64,000 nucleotides of DNA from Salinibacter pepae (lineage in GTDB: Bacteria; Bacteroidota; Rhodothermia; Rhodothermales; Salinibacteraceae): positions 248,001 through 312,000 of the forward strand of contig NZ_CAMTTE010000001.1 of assembly GCF_947077775.1 (NCBI RefSeq), given 5' to 3'. This document shows, in pieces, positions 16,926 through 60,424 of the stretch. The position numbers and the translations under genes were made by a program. The first letter of the stretch is position 1, and each line of letters opens with the position of its first letter. The notes below the pieces were generated by a model. That model saw only the letters and a program-made list of their open reading frames with translations. It did not search any database and was not told where the DNA came from.

Positions 16926-19900
16926 ATGATTCCCCACTGGCGTCGATTTCTTCTCCTCTGCGTGCTGGCGGGGACGGCCCTGTCCCCGGCCCGGGCCCAA
17001 CGGGAGGCCCCTCGGCCGGCGAACGCATTTGGGGGGGCGGTGGAGTTGTACGAGCAGCAGCTCTATCCGGACGCGGCTACGGCGTTCGCTACGTTTCGAC
17101 AGGCCCATGCGTCCCACGTCGCGGCCCCGCAGGCCCTTTACCTGGAAGCGCGGGCCGCCCTGGCGCAGGGAGACGACGCCGGCACCCGACGCCTGCTCAG
17201 CCGGCTTCAGCGCGAGTACCCGTCGCACCCGCGGGCCCGAACCGCCCGGCTCGGGCTGGCGCAGTACTACCTGGATCAGGGGAATCCCGACCGGGCCAAG
17301 TCGCAACTCCAAACCATCGCGACGGCCCCCGATCGCCCGGACGAGGGCGCGCGGGCCCTCTACCTCCTGGGCCGGACGGAGCAGAATCAGGGCAACCCCG
17401 ACGCCGCCCTCCCCTACTTCAAACAGGTCTACTCGCGCTACCCCGACGCCGAGTTGGCCCCAGCGGCCCTGTACGCCCGGGGCGTCACCCAGGTGCAACT
17501 GGAGCGCTACGACCGGGCCACGGCCTCGTTCGAGCGGCTCGGCGAGCAATTTCCGGACGCCCCGTTTTCGGAAAACCTGGGCACCATTCTGGGCGAAGTG
17601 TACTACCGGGTCGGCCAGTACGAGAATGCCGCCACGGAGCTGCAGCGACGCCTTCCCGACCTCACCGGCCCCGCCCGCGCCCGCACCCTGTTCCTGCTCG
17701 GCGAGACGTACAGTGCCCTCGGGCGCCGAGAGGACGCCACAACGCAGTACCGGTTGATTCTGGAGGAGCTGCCAAACAGCTCGTACACGACTCCTGCCCG
17801 CTACGGGCTCGCATGGCAGCACTACAACGCGGGGCGGCACGCGGCGGCCGCCGAGGCCTTCGCGGCGGTGCGCGCAGCGGACCATCCGCTCGCCGACAGG
17901 GCGACGTACTACGAGGCCGCGAGTCGAGCCCTCACCGGTGCCCGGGCGGATGCCCTGGAGCGATACCGCACCTTCCTCGATCGGGCCGAGGCGGGTCCGC
18001 TGGCAACCGCGGCCCGGTACGAGGTCGGCCTGCTTCACTACCGACAGGAGCGATACGACCGAGCGGCCTCGGCCTTCCGCGCCGCCACCCAACAGGCCTC
18101 GTCGGCGGGGCCGCGCGGCGAGGCATTCTACTGGCTCGGCAACGCCTACCTGGCGACCGACAATCTGGACTCGGCCCTAGATGCGTATACTGAGGCGATC
18201 GATCGGGGGGCCGCTCCCGAATCGGTAACCGCCACGGTGCGGTTTCAAAAGGCATGGTCCCTGTACCGCAACGGGCGCTACGGCGAGGCGGGGACGGAAT
18301 TCCGGGCCCTCGCCGACGCACACTCCGAAACGGCCCGGGGCCAGGAGGCGCTCTTCTGGGGGGGCGATACGTTCTATCAGCGGGAGCGATACGGAGCGGC
18401 CCGACGACAATTCCAGAAATACCTCGACACCAGCCCGGACGCACCGCAGCGAGCGGGCGCGCGGTACGCCCTTGCCTGGACGTATTTCAAGCAACGTCGC
18501 TTCGAGCCCGCCGCCCGGTCGTTTCGCCGGTTTCTGGACGTGTACGACGGGGACTCCACATCCGACGTCCCGTACCGGCAGGACGCCCGCCTTCGATTGG
18601 CGGACTGCTACTTTGCCCTCAAGCGGTACGACGACGCCCGGGCGGCGTACGACCGCGTCGACGGGGAAGGCGTCGAGTACGCGCTCTACCAGGGAGGACG
18701 GGCCCTGTACTACGCGGGCCAGCCGGGCGCCGCCCGCGATCGCCTCCGTCGCTTCGTCGAGGACTTTCCCGACAGTCCCCTCCGCCCCGATGCGCTGTAC
18801 CGCCTCGGGGACATTCACTTCCAGGAACAGCGCTACGAGGCCGCCCGGGACGCCTTCACTCAACTGCTCGAAGATTACCCCGAGACGGCCCGTGCCGCCG
18901 AGGCCCAGTACGCGATCGGGGACACCCACTACAACGCGGGCGAGATGAAGGACGCTGTGCAGGCCTACCGCGCCGTCCTCGAAACCTATCCCGAAAGCCC
19001 CTCCGCCAGTGAGGCGGCCTCCAGCCTCTTCTTTGCCCTCAACGCCGCGGGCCAACAGGATCGCGCCGACACGCTCATCGCGGCGATTGCGAACCGCGTG
19101 CCGGACGCCAACATGGAGGACCGCCTGCGCTACCACCGGGCCCGGGCCGCGTACCAGCGCGGCGACTCGAAGCGGGCCCTCCGCCTCTTCCGCACGTTTG
19201 TGCGCACCACCTCCACCCCGGCGCGCGTGCCGGACGCGTACTACTATCTCGGGCTCTTGTACGCCGACACCGACCAGTACGAGGAGGCCAAAAACTACCT
19301 CCGGCAACTCACGGACCAGTACCCCGACAGCGAATACCTCTCGGATGCCAGCCTTCGTCTCGGGGAAATTTACCTCGAGGAGGGGGCCAACGAGCAGGCC
19401 GCGGCGGCCTACCGCACCGCCGCCGAGCAGGACGACACCCGGGACGAGCTGCGTGCCCAGGCCCGGTACGGCCAGGGTCAGGCCCTCCTGCGGCTCGGCC
19501 GCACCAGCGCGGCCGACACCCTCCTGTCCCAGATTCTGGAGGCCGAGCCCCAGGGCCCCCTCCGAAATGCCGCGCGGCTCGGCCTCGGGCGGGTTCGAGA
19601 GGAGCAGGGACGCACCGACGAGGCGCTCGACCTCTACCGGCGTGTCATTCGGGCGTCGGACGGGGAAACCGGCGCCGAGGCGCTGTACCGCCTCGGGCGG
19701 CAGCTCCGGCGGCAGGGGAATCCCCAGACCGCCATCCGTGAACTGGAGCGCATGCCGTCCCTCTTCGCCGGACACCCCGAGTGGGAGGCCCGGGCGCTGC
19801 TCGAACAGGCCCGGGCCTACCGCGCCCAGGGCGAGACCGGCCAGGCCGTTCAGCTGTACGACGAGGTGCAACAGACCTACGGCGGCACTCCGTTTGCCGA

Positions 19901-19937
19901 AACGGCCCGGGACGAACAACAGGCAATTGAATCGTAG
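16926..19937 (+). CDS. Exported protein of tandem TPR repeats, 1003 aa
   Basis: A large periplasmic or outer-membrane-associated scaffold. Residues 1-24 are a signal peptide (WRRFLLLCVLAGTALSPARAQ) without a lipobox. The rest is a nearly continuous array of about 25 tetratricopeptide-like units of 34-40 residues, with recurring 'A.Y.LG..Y...G....A...F......YP.S' patterns of the YbgF/BamD/Tol-Pal type. Such repeats bind peptides and often act in envelope assembly. ATG 16926 is chosen over the open frame beginning at 16857 because the signal peptide starts there. It is followed 56 bp later by an outer-membrane barrel gene, then HU/SPOR and ExbB/ExbD genes, suggesting an envelope complex. Confidence 0.85.
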   Translation: MIPHWRRFLLLCVLAGTALSPARAQREAPRPANAFGGAVELYEQQLYPDAATAFATFRQAHASHVAAPQALYLEARAALAQGDDAGTRRLLSRLQREYPSHPRARTARLGLAQYYLDQGNPDRAKSQLQTIATAPDRPDEGARALYLLGRTEQNQGNPDAALPYFKQVYSRYPDAELAPAALYARGVTQVQLERYDRATASFERLGEQFPDAPFSENLGTILGEVYYRVGQYENAATELQRRLPDLTGPARARTLFLLGETYSALGRREDATTQYRLILEELPNSSYTTPARYGLAWQHYNAGRHAAAAEAFAAVRAADHPLADRATYYEAASRALTGARADALERYRTFLDRAEAGPLATAARYEVGLLHYRQERYDRAASAFRAATQQASSAGPRGEAFYWLGNAYLATDNLDSALDAYTEAIDRGAAPESVTATVRFQKAWSLYRNGRYGEAGTEFRALADAHSETARGQEALFWGGDTFYQRERYGAARRQFQKYLDTSPDAPQRAGARYALAWTYFKQRRFEPAARSFRRFLDVYDGDSTSDVPYRQDARLRLADCYFALKRYDDARAAYDRVDGEGVEYALYQGGRALYYAGQPGAARDRLRRFVEDFPDSPLRPDALYRLGDIHFQEQRYEAARDAFTQLLEDYPETARAAEAQYAIGDTHYNAGEMKDAVQAYRAVLETYPESPSASEAASSLFFALNAAGQQDRADTLIAAIANRVPDANMEDRLRYHRARAAYQRGDSKRALRLFRTFVRTTSTPARVPDAYYYLGLLYADTDQYEEAKNYLRQLTDQYPDSEYLSDASLRLGEIYLEEGANEQAAAAYRTAAEQDDTRDELRAQARYGQGQALLRLGRTSAADTLLSQILEAEPQGPLRNAARLGLGRVREEQGRTDEALDLYRRVIRASDGETGAEALYRLGRQLRRQGNPQTAIRELERMPSLFAGHPEWEARALLEQARAYRAQGETGQAVQLYDEVQQTYGGTPFAETARDEQQAIES

Positions 19938-19993
19938 CGGGCCGTCGCCTCCCGCCTCTCACTCTCGCTGTAATCTCTTCTTGGCTCTCCCGT

Positions 19994-21721
19994 ATGCGCA
20001 CCCTTCGTCTCGGACCCGTGCCCATGCGTTCCCGTCTCATCGGCCTCTGCCTCACCGGGATGGTCCTCCTCTTGATCGCCTCGCCCGTGCAGGCCCAGCA
20101 GACCGACACGACACAGCTTCCCGAGATTGCTCCGCGGGAGATCGAAATTCGGGGCGAGCGCCAGATCGCCCTTCCTTCCCTGGAGCGCCAGCCCCTGACC
20201 GGCTTCGCGACGCCCCCTGCAGTCCCGACCGTGCCGCCGGACCATCGGCCGTATACCGGCCCCTACGACCAGCCCCTGGACGGCCTTCCCGAGCGCCTGC
20301 CGGTTCCCGAAACGGTCGCGTCGTCGATGGCCCCCACCGCCGAACCGGCTCAGGGCTACCTGGAGGGCGGCAGCGGCCGGTACTTCAGCCGCTTCTTCGA
20401 AGGCCGGGTCGGGGTGCCGGTGTCGCCCCGGAGCCGCCTCTCCCTGCGCGGCGCGTACACGGGCACCGAGGCGGACCCGAACGATGACGTCGCCGAGGCC
20501 CGCGTGCGTCTTCAACATACGCAGGACGCTGTTCGGGTCGACGCGACGGCGCACGGCAATGTGCAGCGGTACGCCCTCCACGGCGCCGCCCCCACCCGGC
20601 CCTCCGTCGCCGAGGTCCCCGACCGGGAGAGCCACTCGGCCGGCGGCGCGGTGCAGGTCCGCCGCACATCCCCGAATGCCCCGGCCCGGGCGGCGGTGCG
20701 CTACGACCACACCGAATACACCTCTCACTTCGATCCTGCCACCTCGGAGCAGACCTACAGCCAACAACAGGTGGGCCTCCGTGGATCGGCGACGGCCCCG
20801 GTTCGCTACCGGCCCCGCGTGCAGGCCCAGTACCGACGATCGTGGTTGGGGGAGGACCCGCAGACCCAAACCGCCTACGACGCGGACGTCAGCGGCACGG
20901 TCTCACACTCCCCGATCGAGTCGGTGTCTGTCGAGGCCGGCGCCGCCGTCCTCGCCTTCGATACGCCCGCCCAGCCGACTCAGCCAAACGCAGGCTCCGT
21001 TGAAGCGACCTTCGTCGCGCCGGTCGTGGATGCCGAGTGGCGACTCGGCACGAGGACTCGCCTCTTCCTTCGCAATCAGCCTCGCCTCGGCGATACGGCC
21101 CTGGATGCGCTCTACGCCACAAATCCGTACGCCCAGCACGCCCCCTCTCTCCGCCCCACCCTCGAAACGACCCACGCGGAGGGGGGCCTCACCCTCACGC
21201 GCGGCCCGGTGCGGATGAAGGCCGCCGCGGGGTACCGGTATGCCCCAACCTACCGGTACTTCGACCGCGCCGGCCAGGGCGCCTACCAGGAGCTGTATCG
21301 GGTTCGGTACGATGCCGCCCGCATTTTGGAAGGACGGGGCGAGGTGGCCCTGCAGGGCGTCGACGGCGTGCAGGCCTCCCTGGGCCTGTCGGTGCGGGAC
21401 GGGACGCTTCCCGACGTGGACGGCCCCATTCCGAACTTTGCCGCCGTCACGGCGGACGCCCTCGTCGCGGTCTCATTCGCAGGGGGCGACGGCTTTTTGA
21501 AGGCCCACGGGGAGTTTCACGGACCGCGCGACGCCGGCCTCGCCCGCACCGTTCGGCTTGACCCATACGTCTCCGTCGACCTCGAAGGTACCTACGCCGT
21601 GGGGGCGGACCTCGAGCTCGTGGCCCGCGCCGAGCAGCTCTCGCCGGACGCACCAACCCTGTGGGCGAACTATCCGCAGCCCGTCGCCGAGCTCTCGGTG
21701 GGCCTGCGGCTGCAATGGTGA
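19994..21721 (+). CDS. Outer-membrane beta-barrel protein, 575 aa
   Basis: A 575-residue outer-membrane protein. A signal peptide ends at 'LLIASPVQAQ' (about residue 34; starts at 19994 or 20024 are both possible). After a Pro-rich linker (about 40-115: 'PPAVPTVPPDHRPYTGPYDQP') comes an array of amphipathic strands with frequent Tyr/Arg/Gly (YFSRFFEGRVGVPVSPRSRLSLRGAY and onward) and an aromatic C terminus (VGLRLQW), the signal for barrel insertion. There is no TonB box or plug domain that I can see, so it is not a typical TonB receptor. It resembles the barrels coded beside TPR/YbgF genes in Bacteroidota. Function unknown; context suggests it works with the upstream TPR protein. Confidence 0.8.
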   Translation: MRTLRLGPVPMRSRLIGLCLTGMVLLLIASPVQAQQTDTTQLPEIAPREIEIRGERQIALPSLERQPLTGFATPPAVPTVPPDHRPYTGPYDQPLDGLPERLPVPETVASSMAPTAEPAQGYLEGGSGRYFSRFFEGRVGVPVSPRSRLSLRGAYTGTEADPNDDVAEARVRLQHTQDAVRVDATAHGNVQRYALHGAAPTRPSVAEVPDRESHSAGGAVQVRRTSPNAPARAAVRYDHTEYTSHFDPATSEQTYSQQQVGLRGSATAPVRYRPRVQAQYRRSWLGEDPQTQTAYDADVSGTVSHSPIESVSVEAGAAVLAFDTPAQPTQPNAGSVEATFVAPVVDAEWRLGTRTRLFLRNQPRLGDTALDALYATNPYAQHAPSLRPTLETTHAEGGLTLTRGPVRMKAAAGYRYAPTYRYFDRAGQGAYQELYRVRYDAARILEGRGEVALQGVDGVQASLGLSVRDGTLPDVDGPIPNFAAVTADALVAVSFAGGDGFLKAHGEFHGPRDAGLARTVRLDPYVSVDLEGTYAVGADLELVARAEQLSPDAPTLWANYPQPVAELSVGLRLQW

Positions 21722-21842
21722 CCCAGTCCGGACGCGTCGGGGACCGGCGTCCTCAGGCCCCGGATTTTATGTTGCGCCCCACGAACGTATTTTTAGGGTG
21801 ACCTTTGGACCACTCCCGCTCATTCATTCTCCCACGTTCGTC

Positions 21843-22049
21843 ATGGAGTCCCCTTCCGCCGAAGAGGTCATCGAGGCGTTCACCGACGCGGTCCAGGATC
21901 AACTGGACACCGGAAACGCCGTAGAGGTGCCGGGCCTCGGCACGTTTTCCGTTGAGCACCGCCCGAGCGGGGTGCAGGAGGAGGACGGCGTTCGTCGTCT
22001 CGCCCCGCCCCGCAACGAGGTCGTCTTCACCCCAGAACCGGGCGCGTGA
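21843..22049 (+). CDS. Mini HU-like DNA-binding protein, 68 aa
   Basis: A 68-residue protein matching the N-terminal dimerisation half of HU/IHF: a helix-turn-helix 'PSAEEVIEAFTDAVQDQLDTGNAVEVPGLGTFSVEHR', where the 'GLGTF' turn is diagnostic. The following strand pair is short (RRLAPPRNEVVFTPEPGA), so the long DNA-clamping arms of classical HU (about 90 residues) are mostly missing. It could be a compact HU of the HU-CCDC81 type. It lies 24 bp before the HU-SPOR gene, which carries a second copy of the same fold, so the two may heterodimerise. ATG 21843 directly precedes the first helix. DNA binding is inferred. Confidence 0.75.
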   Translation: MESPSAEEVIEAFTDAVQDQLDTGNAVEVPGLGTFSVEHRPSGVQEEDGVRRLAPPRNEVVFTPEPGA

Positions 22050-22073
22050 CTCCTTCATCACTTGCAGACCCCC

Positions 22074-22913
22074 ATGCCCACATCCATCATCCCCCTCCTC
22101 GCGGAGCGGCTCGACATTCCGGAGGACCAGGTCCGCCCCCTGCTGAGCACCATGGTGGAGGAGCTCCGCCAGCGCGCCGCGTCCGATGGCGTTCAGCTGT
22201 CCGGACTCGGCACGTTTCGGAAGGACGGCGACGCCCTCACCTTCGCCCCCAGCCCGGCACTGCAACGGCGCGTCAATCGGCCGTACGAGGGCCTCTCCGC
22301 GGAGGCCCTCTCTCCTGAAGCCGAGTCCGACGCATCCGCCGCCCCGGATCCTTCCGAGGAGGCCGCGCCGTCCCCGGCGTCGGACGCCGATCAGGACGAG
22401 GACCTCGCGCAGGACCGCCCCCCGGCACAGCCCGACGCCGCCCCCCGCTCCCCGGACTCTTTCACGATCCTCAGTGGCGTGCTCACGGCTCTTTTCCTTG
22501 CTGGAGCCGGATGGTTCGTGGTCACCCAGACAAACGTGTTGGGCCCGACCCAGAACTCGCCGCCCTCCACGGCCACCGAGACGCCGGCCGACCCGACCGG
22601 GCGTAACACCACCACGGATTCCGCCTCTGACGCCCAGTCTGCCGACTCGACGGTCCCCGAGAACGAGGCCTCAGACGCTCGGGACTGGACCATCGTCGTG
22701 GCCTCCAGCTCCTCCCGCGACGGCGCACAGGAGGCCGCGGACCGGTATGCCTCCCGGTTCGATTCCGTCGCCGTCGTGTCCGGAACGGTGGACAATACGA
22801 CGTGGTACCGCGTGACGATTGGGCGGTATGCCTCCGAGTCGACCGCCGAACGCGTCCTCACCGAGCGGGCCGATGCCCTCCCGTCGGACGCGTGGACCCA
22901 CCGCCTCGAATAG
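22074..22913 (+). CDS. HU-domain, transmembrane, SPOR-domain protein
   Basis: A 279-residue protein of three parts. Residues 1-78: an HU-like fold (IIPLLAERLDIPEDQVRPLL, 'VQLSGLGTFRKDGDALTFAPSPAL'), which would be cytoplasmic. Residues 79-128: acidic Pro/Ala/Asp linker. Residues 131-151: one transmembrane helix (TILSGVLTALFLAGAGWFVV). Residues 152-203: Ser/Thr-rich periplasmic linker. Residues 204-279: SPOR domain (WTIVVASSSSRDGAQEAADRYAS ... WYRVTIGRYASESTAERVL), a fold that binds denuded glycan strands at sites of septal synthesis. This domain order is known in Bacteroidota as HU-CCDC81/SPOR proteins; function unproven. TTG 22062 is an alternative start. ExbB and ExbD genes follow at 30 and 47 bp. 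Confidence 0.88.
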   Translation: MPTSIIPLLAERLDIPEDQVRPLLSTMVEELRQRAASDGVQLSGLGTFRKDGDALTFAPSPALQRRVNRPYEGLSAEALSPEAESDASAAPDPSEEAAPSPASDADQDEDLAQDRPPAQPDAAPRSPDSFTILSGVLTALFLAGAGWFVVTQTNVLGPTQNSPPSTATETPADPTGRNTTTDSASDAQSADSTVPENEASDARDWTIVVASSSSRDGAQEAADRYASRFDSVAVVSGTVDNTTWYRVTIGRYASESTAERVLTERADALPSDAWTHRLE

Positions 22914-22943
22914 CATTTCTCGAACCGACCCCATCTCGCCCCT

Positions 22944-23681
22944 GTGCCTTCTGCTCTGCTGACCGCCGCGACCGTCCTCCCTCAACAGGTGGACACCACG
23001 GCCCTCGACACCACCCAAACCGCATCGGGGCAGGCCTCCTCCCTCCTCGATATTCTGGTGCTGGGGGGATGGGTGATGGTGCCACTGGTGTTGCTTTCCC
23101 TGCTCACCATCTACCTGCTGGTGGAGCGGCTCATCACGATCCGACAGGCCGCCTCCGACCCCGAGGCCATTACCGATCGGGTGCGCGAGTTCGTGCGCAG
23201 CGGCAACGTCGAGGCCGCCATCCAGTACTGTGAGGAGAAGAACGTGCCCATTACCCGCATTCTGCAGCAGGGCCTCGAGCGCCTGGGGCGGCCGATCTCC
23301 GAGATTCAAGACGCCGTGCAGGCCGCGGGCAAGCACGAAACCTTTGACCTGGAGAAGCGGACGAACCTGCTCGCCAGCATCGCCGGCATTGCGCCCATGC
23401 TCGGCTTCTTCGGGACGGTGGTCGGCATGATCCGGGCGTTTCAGCAGATTCAAAACCTGCAGGGGAACGTGAACCCCTCCGTACTGGCAGGGGGGATTTG
23501 GGAGGCCCTCATCACGACCGCGGCGGGCCTGCTGGTCGGCATCCTGGCGCTCTTCTCGTACAACTACCTCATGGGGCGCATCCGGCGCCTGTCGAACGAC
23601 ATGGAGCGCTCCGCCACGGACTTCATCGACCTACTGCAGGAGCCCGTCTCGCCGGAGCGGTCCGAGGAGCTGCCGTCGTGA
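22944..23681 (+). CDS. MotA/TolQ/ExbB proton channel family protein
   Basis: A 245-residue inner-membrane protein forming, with ExbD/TolR, a proton-driven motor that acts on envelope proteins. Three membrane segments: 'ILVLGGWVMVPLVLLSLLTIYLLVERL' (about 37-62), 'LLASIAGIAPMLGFFGTVVGMIRAF' (about 142-167) and 'WEALITTAAGLLVGILALFSYNYL' (about 188-212), with the characteristic 'GTVVGM' and 'ALITTAAGL' motifs. A large cytoplasmic loop (63-140) is normal for the family. The start is a GTG at 22944, 30 bp after the HU-SPOR gene. It could serve a Tol-Pal-like or TonB-like system; the absence of TonB or Pal here leaves the partner open. Confidence 0.92.
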   Translation: MPSALLTAATVLPQQVDTTALDTTQTASGQASSLLDILVLGGWVMVPLVLLSLLTIYLLVERLITIRQAASDPEAITDRVREFVRSGNVEAAIQYCEEKNVPITRILQQGLERLGRPISEIQDAVQAAGKHETFDLEKRTNLLASIAGIAPMLGFFGTVVGMIRAFQQIQNLQGNVNPSVLAGGIWEALITTAAGLLVGILALFSYNYLMGRIRRLSNDMERSATDFIDLLQEPVSPERSEELPS

Positions 23682-23728
23682 ACCTGCGCCTGCGCCGCCC
23701 CGCTCGTTGACCAACCGCCCGCACCGCC

Positions 23729-24136
23729 ATGCCGCTCGACTTCTCCCCGTCCCGCGAGCCGATGACAACCTTCAGCCTCGCGGGCATGACGGACGTCGTC
23801 CTGCTGCTCCTGATTTTCTTCCTGCTCACTTCGAGCTTCATCCCGCAGATGGGCATCCAGGTGAACCTGCCGCAGGTCGACAGCGCCTCGCCCGTGTCGG
23901 AGCAGTCAATCACCGTGTCCCTCACGAAGGACGGCAACTACTACGTGGCCGGCTCGCCGGTGCCGCAGGGGCGCCTCGTGAGCGAGCTGCGCGCCCGCCG
24001 GACCGACCAGCAGTTCCTCATCATGCGGGCCGACCAGGCGGCCCGCATCGGCCAGTTCGCCACGGTTGCGTCCGCGGCGCAGGCCCTGAACATGCGCGTA
24101 CTCGTGGCGACGGAACGGGCCGGGCAGTCGCGGTAG
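23729..24136 (+). CDS. ExbD/TolR family protein
   Basis: A 135-residue single-pass partner of the ExbB-like channel. Short cytoplasmic head (1-20), transmembrane helix about 19-42 ('GMTDVVLLLLIFFLLTSSF') carrying the proton-coupling Asp22, then a periplasmic domain with 'GIQVNLPQVDSASP', 'SITVSLTKDGNYYVAGSPV' and 'FLIMRADQAARIGQFATVASAAQALNM', the usual TolR/ExbD pattern. Length is normal. Many Bacteroidota carry two exbD genes beside exbB; only one is present here. It is the last gene of the module; comM converges on it 215 bp away, and I see no clear terminator between them. Confidence 0.92.
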   Translation: MPLDFSPSREPMTTFSLAGMTDVVLLLLIFFLLTSSFIPQMGIQVNLPQVDSASPVSEQSITVSLTKDGNYYVAGSPVPQGRLVSELRARRTDQQFLIMRADQAARIGQFATVASAAQALNMRVLVATERAGQSR

Positions 24137-26522: not shown

Positions 26523-27080
26523 TTAGGTCACGATCATTGTGCCCTGCATGGTCGCCCAGTGGCCCGGATACGTGCATACGTAGCCGTACTCGCCCGACTC
26601 CGACGGCGTCGTGAACGTCACCGATACCGTTTCGCCCGGCTTCGAGATGTCCGTGGCCGCCAATACCGCAGGGTGGTCGGGGACATATTCGTTCGATGCG
26701 CCCGCCTGCACGCCGGCCTGTCCCACCTCCTTAAAGGTGCCCTGCTCCGGGGGCTTGTTCATCACGAGCACATTATGCTGCATCGACGGGCTCGATGCGG
26801 TGTTCTCGAACACCAGCTCAATCTCCGTGTCCGCCGGCACCTCGAACTCGGTTTCCTTGTACTTCATCTGATTGCCCTGCGGGTGGATCGTCACCGTCTG
26901 GGCGCCGCCCCCGCTCGACTGCCCGGACGCCTGGCTCGTGGACCCAGAGGGGGAGCCGCCTTCCTCGCCGCCCCCGCCCCCGCAGGCCGATACCAGCGAT
27001 CCGGCGCCAAGGCCCGCAATGCCGACCACACTCAGGCGCTGTAAGAAATCACGTCGCGAAACGTCCTGTTCATTTGCCAT
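26523..27080 (-). CDS. Azurin-like blue copper lipoprotein with Tat signal
   Basis: A 185-residue electron carrier. Residues 8-14 (SRRDFLQ) form a twin-arginine motif and LVSAC (29-33) a lipobox, so Cys33 is probably lipidated after Tat export of the folded copper protein. A Gly/Ser linker (34-60) leads to the cupredoxin domain. Type 1 copper ligands are His102 (MQHNVLV), Cys169 (YGYVCTYPGHW), His174 and Met178; the Cys-5-His-4-Met spacing equals that of azurin. Azurins pass electrons to cytochrome oxidases or reductases. The gene stands divergent from a 378-bp leader region and opens the copper-related part of the window. Confidence 0.95.
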   Translation of the reverse strand: MANEQDVSRRDFLQRLSVVGIAGLGAGSLVSACGGGGGEEGGSPSGSTSQASGQSSGGGAQTVTIHPQGNQMKYKETEFEVPADTEIELVFENTASSPSMQHNVLVMNKPPEQGTFKEVGQAGVQAGASNEYVPDHPAVLAATDISKPGETVSVTFTTPSESGEYGYVCTYPGHWATMQGTMIVT

Positions 27081-60351: not shown

Positions 60352-60424
60352 GGTCAGGTAGCTCAGGTGGTAGAGCAACGGCCTGAAAAGCCGTGTGTCG
60401 GCGGTTCGAATCCGCCCCTGACCA
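60352..60424 (+). tRNA. tRNA-Phe (anticodon GAA)
   Basis: A 73-base cloverleaf: acceptor GGTCAGG (60352-60358) pairs with CCTGACC (60417-60423), D arm GCTC/GAGC, anticodon stem ACGGC/GCCGT with loop CTGAAAA (anticodon GAA), variable loop GTGTC, and T arm GGCGG-TTCGAAT-CCGCC. The discriminator is A60424, and the following bases are CCC, not CCA, so the CCA end is added after transcription. It has its own promoter 15 bp upstream and a terminator 8 bp downstream. Confidence 0.97.

Follow-up and report, generated by a model that had tools for sequence, protein, structure and literature searches.

A conserved Bacteroidota gene set with a Ton-type motor, a predicted plugless transporter barrel and an HU-CCDC81/SPOR protein

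Introduction

What does a proton-driven ExbB/ExbD motor act upon when no TonB, Pal, TolA or TolB is encoded beside it? The question is raised by a 64,000-nucleotide stretch of the Salinibacter pepae genome (contig NZ_CAMTTE010000001.1, positions 248,001 to 312,000; hereafter the window, meaning this stretch at its full length), where six consecutive plus-strand genes at 16926-24136 encode a tetratricopeptide repeat (TPR) protein, an outer-membrane barrel, a mini-HU protein, a membrane protein joining an HU fold to a transmembrane (TM) helix and a SPOR domain (HU-TM-SPOR, in short HU-SPOR), ExbB and ExbD. A sequence-only reading of the window described these six genes as we find them, and proposed that the motor lacks a classical partner and that proton force acts on a connector bound to DNA and to peptidoglycan. 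The comparisons presented here point to another answer: a Ton-type motor may pull on a plugless outer-membrane barrel, directed by a SPOR domain to septal peptidoglycan, in a Tol-Pal-like outer-membrane machine. We hold this answer tentatively, at somewhat short of even confidence.

Gene content and conserved order

The set comprises the following features, with window coordinates.

16926..19937, plus strand: TPR protein, 1003 amino acids (aa), with a signal peptide, periplasmic; no lipobox cysteine seen
19994..21721, plus strand: outer-membrane protein, 575 aa, predicted plugless barrel of the TonB-dependent transporter (TBDT) type (AlphaFold2, structure and profile matches)
20135..20155, plus strand: TonB-box-like strand REIEIRG, residues 48-54 (pattern [IVLF]-x-[IV] kept in 26/26 members)
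20342..21718, plus strand: barrel domain proper, residues 117-575 (AlphaFold2 model and structural alignment)
21843..22049, plus strand: mini-HU, 68 aa, the split-off first HU of an HU-CCDC81 pair (PF00216, E=2e-9)
22074..22913, plus strand: HU-TM-SPOR protein, 279 aa (Pfam and sequence reading)
22074..22253, plus strand: second HU domain, cytoplasmic by inferred topology (HU-CCDC81_bac_2, 15.6 bits)
22458..22529, plus strand: single transmembrane helix (sequence reading; a helix is predicted at the matching place in a fused relative)
22680..22862, plus strand: SPOR domain, periplasmic (PF05036, E=7e-11)
22944..23681, plus strand: ExbB/TolQ-type proton-channel subunit (MotA_ExbB, PF01618, E=3e-33)
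23729..24136, plus strand: ExbD/TolR-type subunit with a transmembrane Asp, MTDVVLLLL (PF02472, E=3e-21)

The Pfam matches agree with the sequence-only reading as regards the ExbB/ExbD proton motor, the peptidoglycan-binding SPOR domain and the periplasmic TPR protein, the last matching TPR_16 over 14 stretches (E=6e-85) behind its signal peptide.

ExbB was used to scan 84,980 genomes, and the flanks of the matches were then read. The order TPR - barrel - mini-HU - HU-SPOR - ExbB - ExbD is present in Rhodothermales (L031-L051) and in Pedobacter and its relatives (L055-L093), and is seen again in Balneolales-type families, in further families of the same class and in other families of the phylum. 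The ExbB of the window is 98% identical to that of L031, the genome being close to S. altiplanensis, and relatives whose ExbB is only about 40% identical still have the block order. This gene order is ancient and not a chance neighbourhood. The genes are thus conserved together in relatives as one set, bearing out the earlier view that a proton motor belongs together with parts that bind peptidoglycan, lie in the periplasm or sit in the outer membrane. On the best reading, a seven-part set, made up of the six window genes and the transducer described below, is ancestral in Bacteroidota.

The same cannot be said of the suggestion that the 121-bp gap before the mini-HU gene splits the set into two transcripts. 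A consensus scan, which is weak evidence in the GC-rich Salinibacter, returned no promoter-like or terminator-like match in the gap, and hardly any space separates the barrel and mini-HU frames in Balneolales-type loci. The gap therefore looks local, and we dropped it as a transcript boundary.

The outer-membrane barrel and the TPR protein

By itself, the barrel protein has no Pfam match. Its AlphaFold2 model, made with 26 relatives, has a predicted local distance difference test score (pLDDT) of 82; we count 22 strands from residue 120 onwards, and residues 29-114 are mostly disordered, mostly with pLDDT <50. The best Foldseek matches of the model are BtuB and other TBDTs (E=6e-18). Structural alignment with BtuB (VIA-align) gives Z 22.5 and a root-mean-square deviation of 3.1 over 386 residues, starting from BtuB residue 134, where the barrel of BtuB begins; BtuB and FhuA score Z of about 22 and align with their barrel parts only. 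The sequence profile alone leads to the PfeA barrel (E=1.7e-11). The TBDT plug domain (PF07715) is found in 0 of the 26 barrel members. The best-conserved hydrophobic pair of the free N-terminus sits in the TonB-box-like strand, which reads REIEIRG in the window and EEIVVTTAYKP in L216, both key positions being hydrophobic in all 26. As modelled, the protein is predicted to be a transporter barrel that has retained its TonB handle and lacks a plug on which TonB could act. The outer-membrane barrel of the sequence-only reading is thereby kept and refined to a plugless TBDT type.

TPR orthologues of about 1010 aa open the block in relatives, and the large TPR gene almost always adjoins the barrel gene. 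We dropped matches of the TPR protein to YbgF, BamD and PorW as signs of orthology, because repeats inflate such scores and PorW and CpoB fall under the cut-off.

The constancy of this neighbourhood is among the points favouring export or outer-membrane biogenesis as the function of the set, with the plugless barrel as a wide channel for protein, lipid or glycan, the Ton-type motor as its power source, the TPR protein as a gate or carrier in the periplasm, and HU-SPOR to set the location. A TBDT-type barrel devoid of its plug would indeed form a wide pore, and the TBDT Oar is reportedly needed for secretion of the PopC protease in Myxococcus (PMC6434023). However, no cargo gene accompanies the set, and the conserved SPOR/HU protein indicates a cell-wall or division site. 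We consider export unlikely, though worth keeping in mind.

The motor and its relocated transducer

The module ExbB scores higher with the TolQ model (106 bits) than with the ExbB model (61), both below the cut-off, and ExbD ties between TolR and ExbD. In the ExbB tree it groups with 32 other module ExbBs, apart from the second ExbB of this genome and the outgroups (support 86/80, and 98/98 in a 31-row subset). The group roughly tracks organism groups and takes in unlinked Flavobacteriaceae-type copies; the module is nearly always single-copy and vertically inherited. A second motor of the same genome, at C1:380000-396000 (L119:6089-8411), consists of an ExbB and two ExbD genes, with no TonB beside them.

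In Balneolales-type genomes (L125, L127, L128, L129, L137, L138), in Pedobacter and in Bacteroidales (L052-L054), a TonB/TolA-like gene lies directly 3' of exbD. Its product is 270-330 aa long, with one N-terminal helix, a TonB/TolA-type C-domain and, in most cases, a Pro/Glu-rich spacer. A profile of this transducer identifies one unlinked copy in the genome of the window (C1:734593-735294, E=1e-38), which exceeds the cut-offs of both PF03544 (TonB_C, 31.6 bits against 24.6) and PF13103 (TonB_2, 27.1 against 22) and has, like a typical TonB, a His in its transmembrane helix; TolA and TonB are not separable by sequence here. That TonB, Pal, TolA and TolB are missing is therefore true of the window but not of the set, since a TonB/TolA-like gene belongs to it in most relatives and is present elsewhere in this genome. 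With this copy found, the notion of a motor without a classical partner was dropped: the partner adjoins exbD in relatives and is unlinked here. The relocated gene, on the minus strand (L199:6594-7337), is flanked by genes resembling 2-oxoacid dehydrogenase E1 subunits, an odd site for an envelope gene.

Barrel and transducer also share their distribution. The transducer profile is present in all sampled Rhodothermales save one family, f7, where there is a single weak partial match. Of 60 genomes, seven lack the barrel and the same seven, all of f7, lack the transducer. Across the phylum, 183 of 296 genomes have both, 93 neither, 16 the barrel only and 4 the transducer only, so that 276 agree, in counts that depend on thresholds and come from genomes related to each other, for which reason a Fisher p-value computed on them does not amount to a real probability.

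The HU-CCDC81 pair and the SPOR protein

Mini-HU and HU-SPOR form one protein in Pedobacter and in the Rhodothermales-type loci L045 and L051. Fused relatives match both HU-CCDC81_bac_1 and HU-CCDC81_bac_2 in 24/24 cases, and SPOR in 18/24, from which it follows that the two HU genes of the window are a split form of the named HU-CCDC81 family. The second HU of the window is weak by itself, below the cut-off, and its orthologue in L038 reaches 43.5 bits with the same HU-CCDC81_bac_2 model.

An AlphaFold2 model of the HU tandem, made on the fused relative L064, shows a pair of HU-like domains, predicted with confidence, together with a membrane helix and a SPOR domain whose fold matches DedD (Z 8.9), CwlC (7.8) and RlpA (7.0). 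The second HU domain matches HU (Z 6.6) and has no beta-arm. Taken whole, the tandem has its best fold matches among doublet-microtubule chains of sea urchin and Tetrahymena (8snb chain 1K, Z 8.4, residues 1-127; 8v3l chain A, Z 8.8). In Tetrahymena, CCDC81b has been proposed as a microtubule inner protein (PMC11961760), and we infer that both of the matched chains are CCDC81 proteins.

The DNA-intercalating RNP motif is absent in all 24 relatives, and net charge ranges from +3 to -5 in the first HU and from 0 to -10 in the second, also outside halophiles. The acidic charge of the window's own HU domains was dropped as an argument, the proteome being that of a halophile, and charge was judged in non-halophile relatives instead. 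With no RNP motif, mostly neutral to acidic domains and a second HU devoid of its beta-arm, canonical HU-type DNA binding is unsupported, and on the evidence of the models protein docking appears the more likely role of the pair and DNA binding the less likely one. The two HU folds noted earlier are thus retained, but without support as DNA-binding ones.

It is these properties that weaken the case for a tether between nucleoid and envelope, in which proton force would act on a DNA-bound, peptidoglycan-bound connector to position the chromosome. Two HU-fold domains do lie on the cytoplasmic side, and Burroughs, Kaur, Zhang and Aravind (2017, Cell Cycle) reportedly predicted that bacterial HU-CCDC81 proteins act in chromosome partition. 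A DNA-bound connector is nevertheless difficult to reconcile with a family in which the intercalating motif and basic charge are lacking or nearly so, the second HU has no beta-arm and the tandem as a whole most resembles doublet-microtubule chains, and we regard the tether as quite improbable.

Two f7 loci (L233:8169-9360, L232:8007-9101) have mini-HU and HU-SPOR beside SIS-domain and ROK-type genes; in this family HU-SPOR may act independently of the motor, perhaps in connection with cell-wall sugars. In L235, L236 and L240 (families f37, f22 and f40) HU-SPOR is a short protein of 209-256 aa, possibly after loss of the SPOR domain or of one HU.

Comparison with known systems

With the Ton system the set shares ExbB/ExbD, a TonB-type transducer (transmembrane His, TonB_C), a TBDT-type barrel and a TonB-box-like strand; it differs in the plugless barrel, the fixed TPR and HU/SPOR partners, the usual single copy and an ExbB that scores higher with TolQ. 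Ordinary TonB-dependent nutrient import by a divergent receptor with accessory proteins, which the co-occurrence of ExbB, ExbD, a TonB-like protein and a TBDT-type barrel might suggest, is very unlikely in view of the lack of the plug in all 26 members, the fixed SPOR/HU and TPR association and a nearly constant single, vertically inherited copy, unlike substrate-specific TBDTs.

With Tol-Pal the set has in common a peptidoglycan-binding protein and a TPR protein that matches the YbgF/CpoB model via its repeats, and possibly a TolQ/TolR/TolA-like trio. The differences are that neither TolB nor Pal is in the set, that the outer-membrane end is a barrel, that binding is of the SPOR rather than the OmpA type, and that there is a cytoplasmic HU pair. 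TolB_N (PF04052) is absent from this genome and found in 2/40 genomes of the class, and no Pal lipoprotein occurs in the block; six OmpA-domain proteins are encoded elsewhere in the genome. Tol-pal loci have been described as not identifiable in Bacteroidetes, with PorE proposed instead, in a text with 0 occurrences of SPOR (PMC12204202). PorE resembles the present set as a proposed stand-in for the missing Tol-Pal role, that of a tether from outer membrane to peptidoglycan, but is a single lipoprotein with CpoB-, TolB- and Pal-like domains, encoded outside the block.

The same study describes TPR - TolQ - TolR - vWA transducers in the PVC group (PMC12204202), which likewise have a TPR gene beside a TolQ/TolR motor but differ in the vWA transducer, and for which neither a plugless barrel nor HU/SPOR is reported. 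TPR-ExbB-ExbD loci like this arrangement are seen in L097 and L108. Outside Bacteroidota, a large TPR gene beside ExbB-ExbD recurs in these two loci (Planctomycetota-type), in L104 and L106 (Omnitrophota) and in L094, L098 and L105 (Methylacidiphilum/Verrucomicrobiota).

The HU-CCDC81/SPOR proteins of Bacteroidota (PF18174/PF18175) have the same two HU domains, transmembrane helix and SPOR domain; the window differs in the split over two genes, the location in a motor operon and the weak Pfam score of its copy. Among searchable papers we found none naming HU-CCDC81, none joining SPOR-domain proteins, TonB, Bacteroidota and division, and no report of the whole set, of a Ton motor dedicated to a plugless transporter barrel, or of a connection between that barrel and HU-SPOR. 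Each part comes from a known family, and the combination is a variant of Ton/Tol force transduction.

Neighbouring features

The set is flanked by ordinary genes, as read from sequence: a UvrC-like gene on the 5' side and a ComM-like gene on the opposite strand on the 3' side. The sole Rfam match within the window is a tRNA gene at 60352-60424. At 26523-27080, on the minus strand, lies a gene that appears, from a reading of its translation only, to encode a secreted cupredoxin-like protein with a Gly/Ser-rich linker.

Discussion

How might the parts work together? The parts themselves, their order, the barrel fold, the missing plug, the identity of the transducer and the co-occurrence are computed. 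In the mechanism that we propose, ExbB and ExbD would draw on the proton gradient, and the TonB/TolA-like rod would transmit force across the periplasm, pairing with the TonB-box-like N-terminal strand of the barrel by beta-strand addition. With no plug to displace, the pull would act on the barrel, and so on the outer membrane and whatever the TPR protein holds. SPOR domains bind denuded glycan, which is enriched at septa (PMC6895207); the HU-CCDC81/SPOR membrane protein would accordingly bind denuded septal glycan on the outside, placing the machine at the division site, and its paired HU folds on the inside would serve as a protein-docking, possibly DNA-docking, module. Overall, the machine would couple the outer membrane inward or stabilise it in constriction, as Tol-Pal does elsewhere. 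Strand pairing, septal location and a division role are thus our deductions from the computed parts.

The scarcity of TolB_N in the class and the lack of tol-pal loci in Bacteroidetes (PMC12204202) make a Tol-Pal-like role attractive, if presumptive. The more specific proposition that the set is the missing Bacteroidota counterpart of Tol-Pal, with the motor pulling the barrel inward at division, SPOR as septum sensor and the HU pair coupling the machine to divisome or nucleoid, is possible, but we are more inclined to doubt than to accept it.

Several observations weigh against the proposed machine. SPOR domains occur in non-division proteins too. The f7 family of Rhodothermales has kept HU-SPOR without barrel, transducer or module ExbB, so that the association of HU-SPOR with the motor is not a strict one. 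In the Pedobacter transducer the transmembrane His is missing and the C-domain scores under the Pfam cut-off. In Flavobacteriaceae-type genomes the set is scattered over three loci. Finally, the six OmpA-domain proteins or PorE could act as the tether instead.

Conclusions

Bacteroidota are a major gut and environmental phylum that constricts and anchors its outer membrane without Tol-Pal, no tol-pal loci being identifiable there (PMC12204202). The gene set described here offers seven concrete genes for this problem and a testable contact, that between the transducer C-domain and the barrel strand. If the proposed mechanism is true, a plugless TBDT-type barrel with its own Ton motor would represent a use of TonB force beyond plug displacement, and the HU-CCDC81 pair would tie a bacterial envelope machine to a domain family found inside the ciliary microtubules of eukaryotes.

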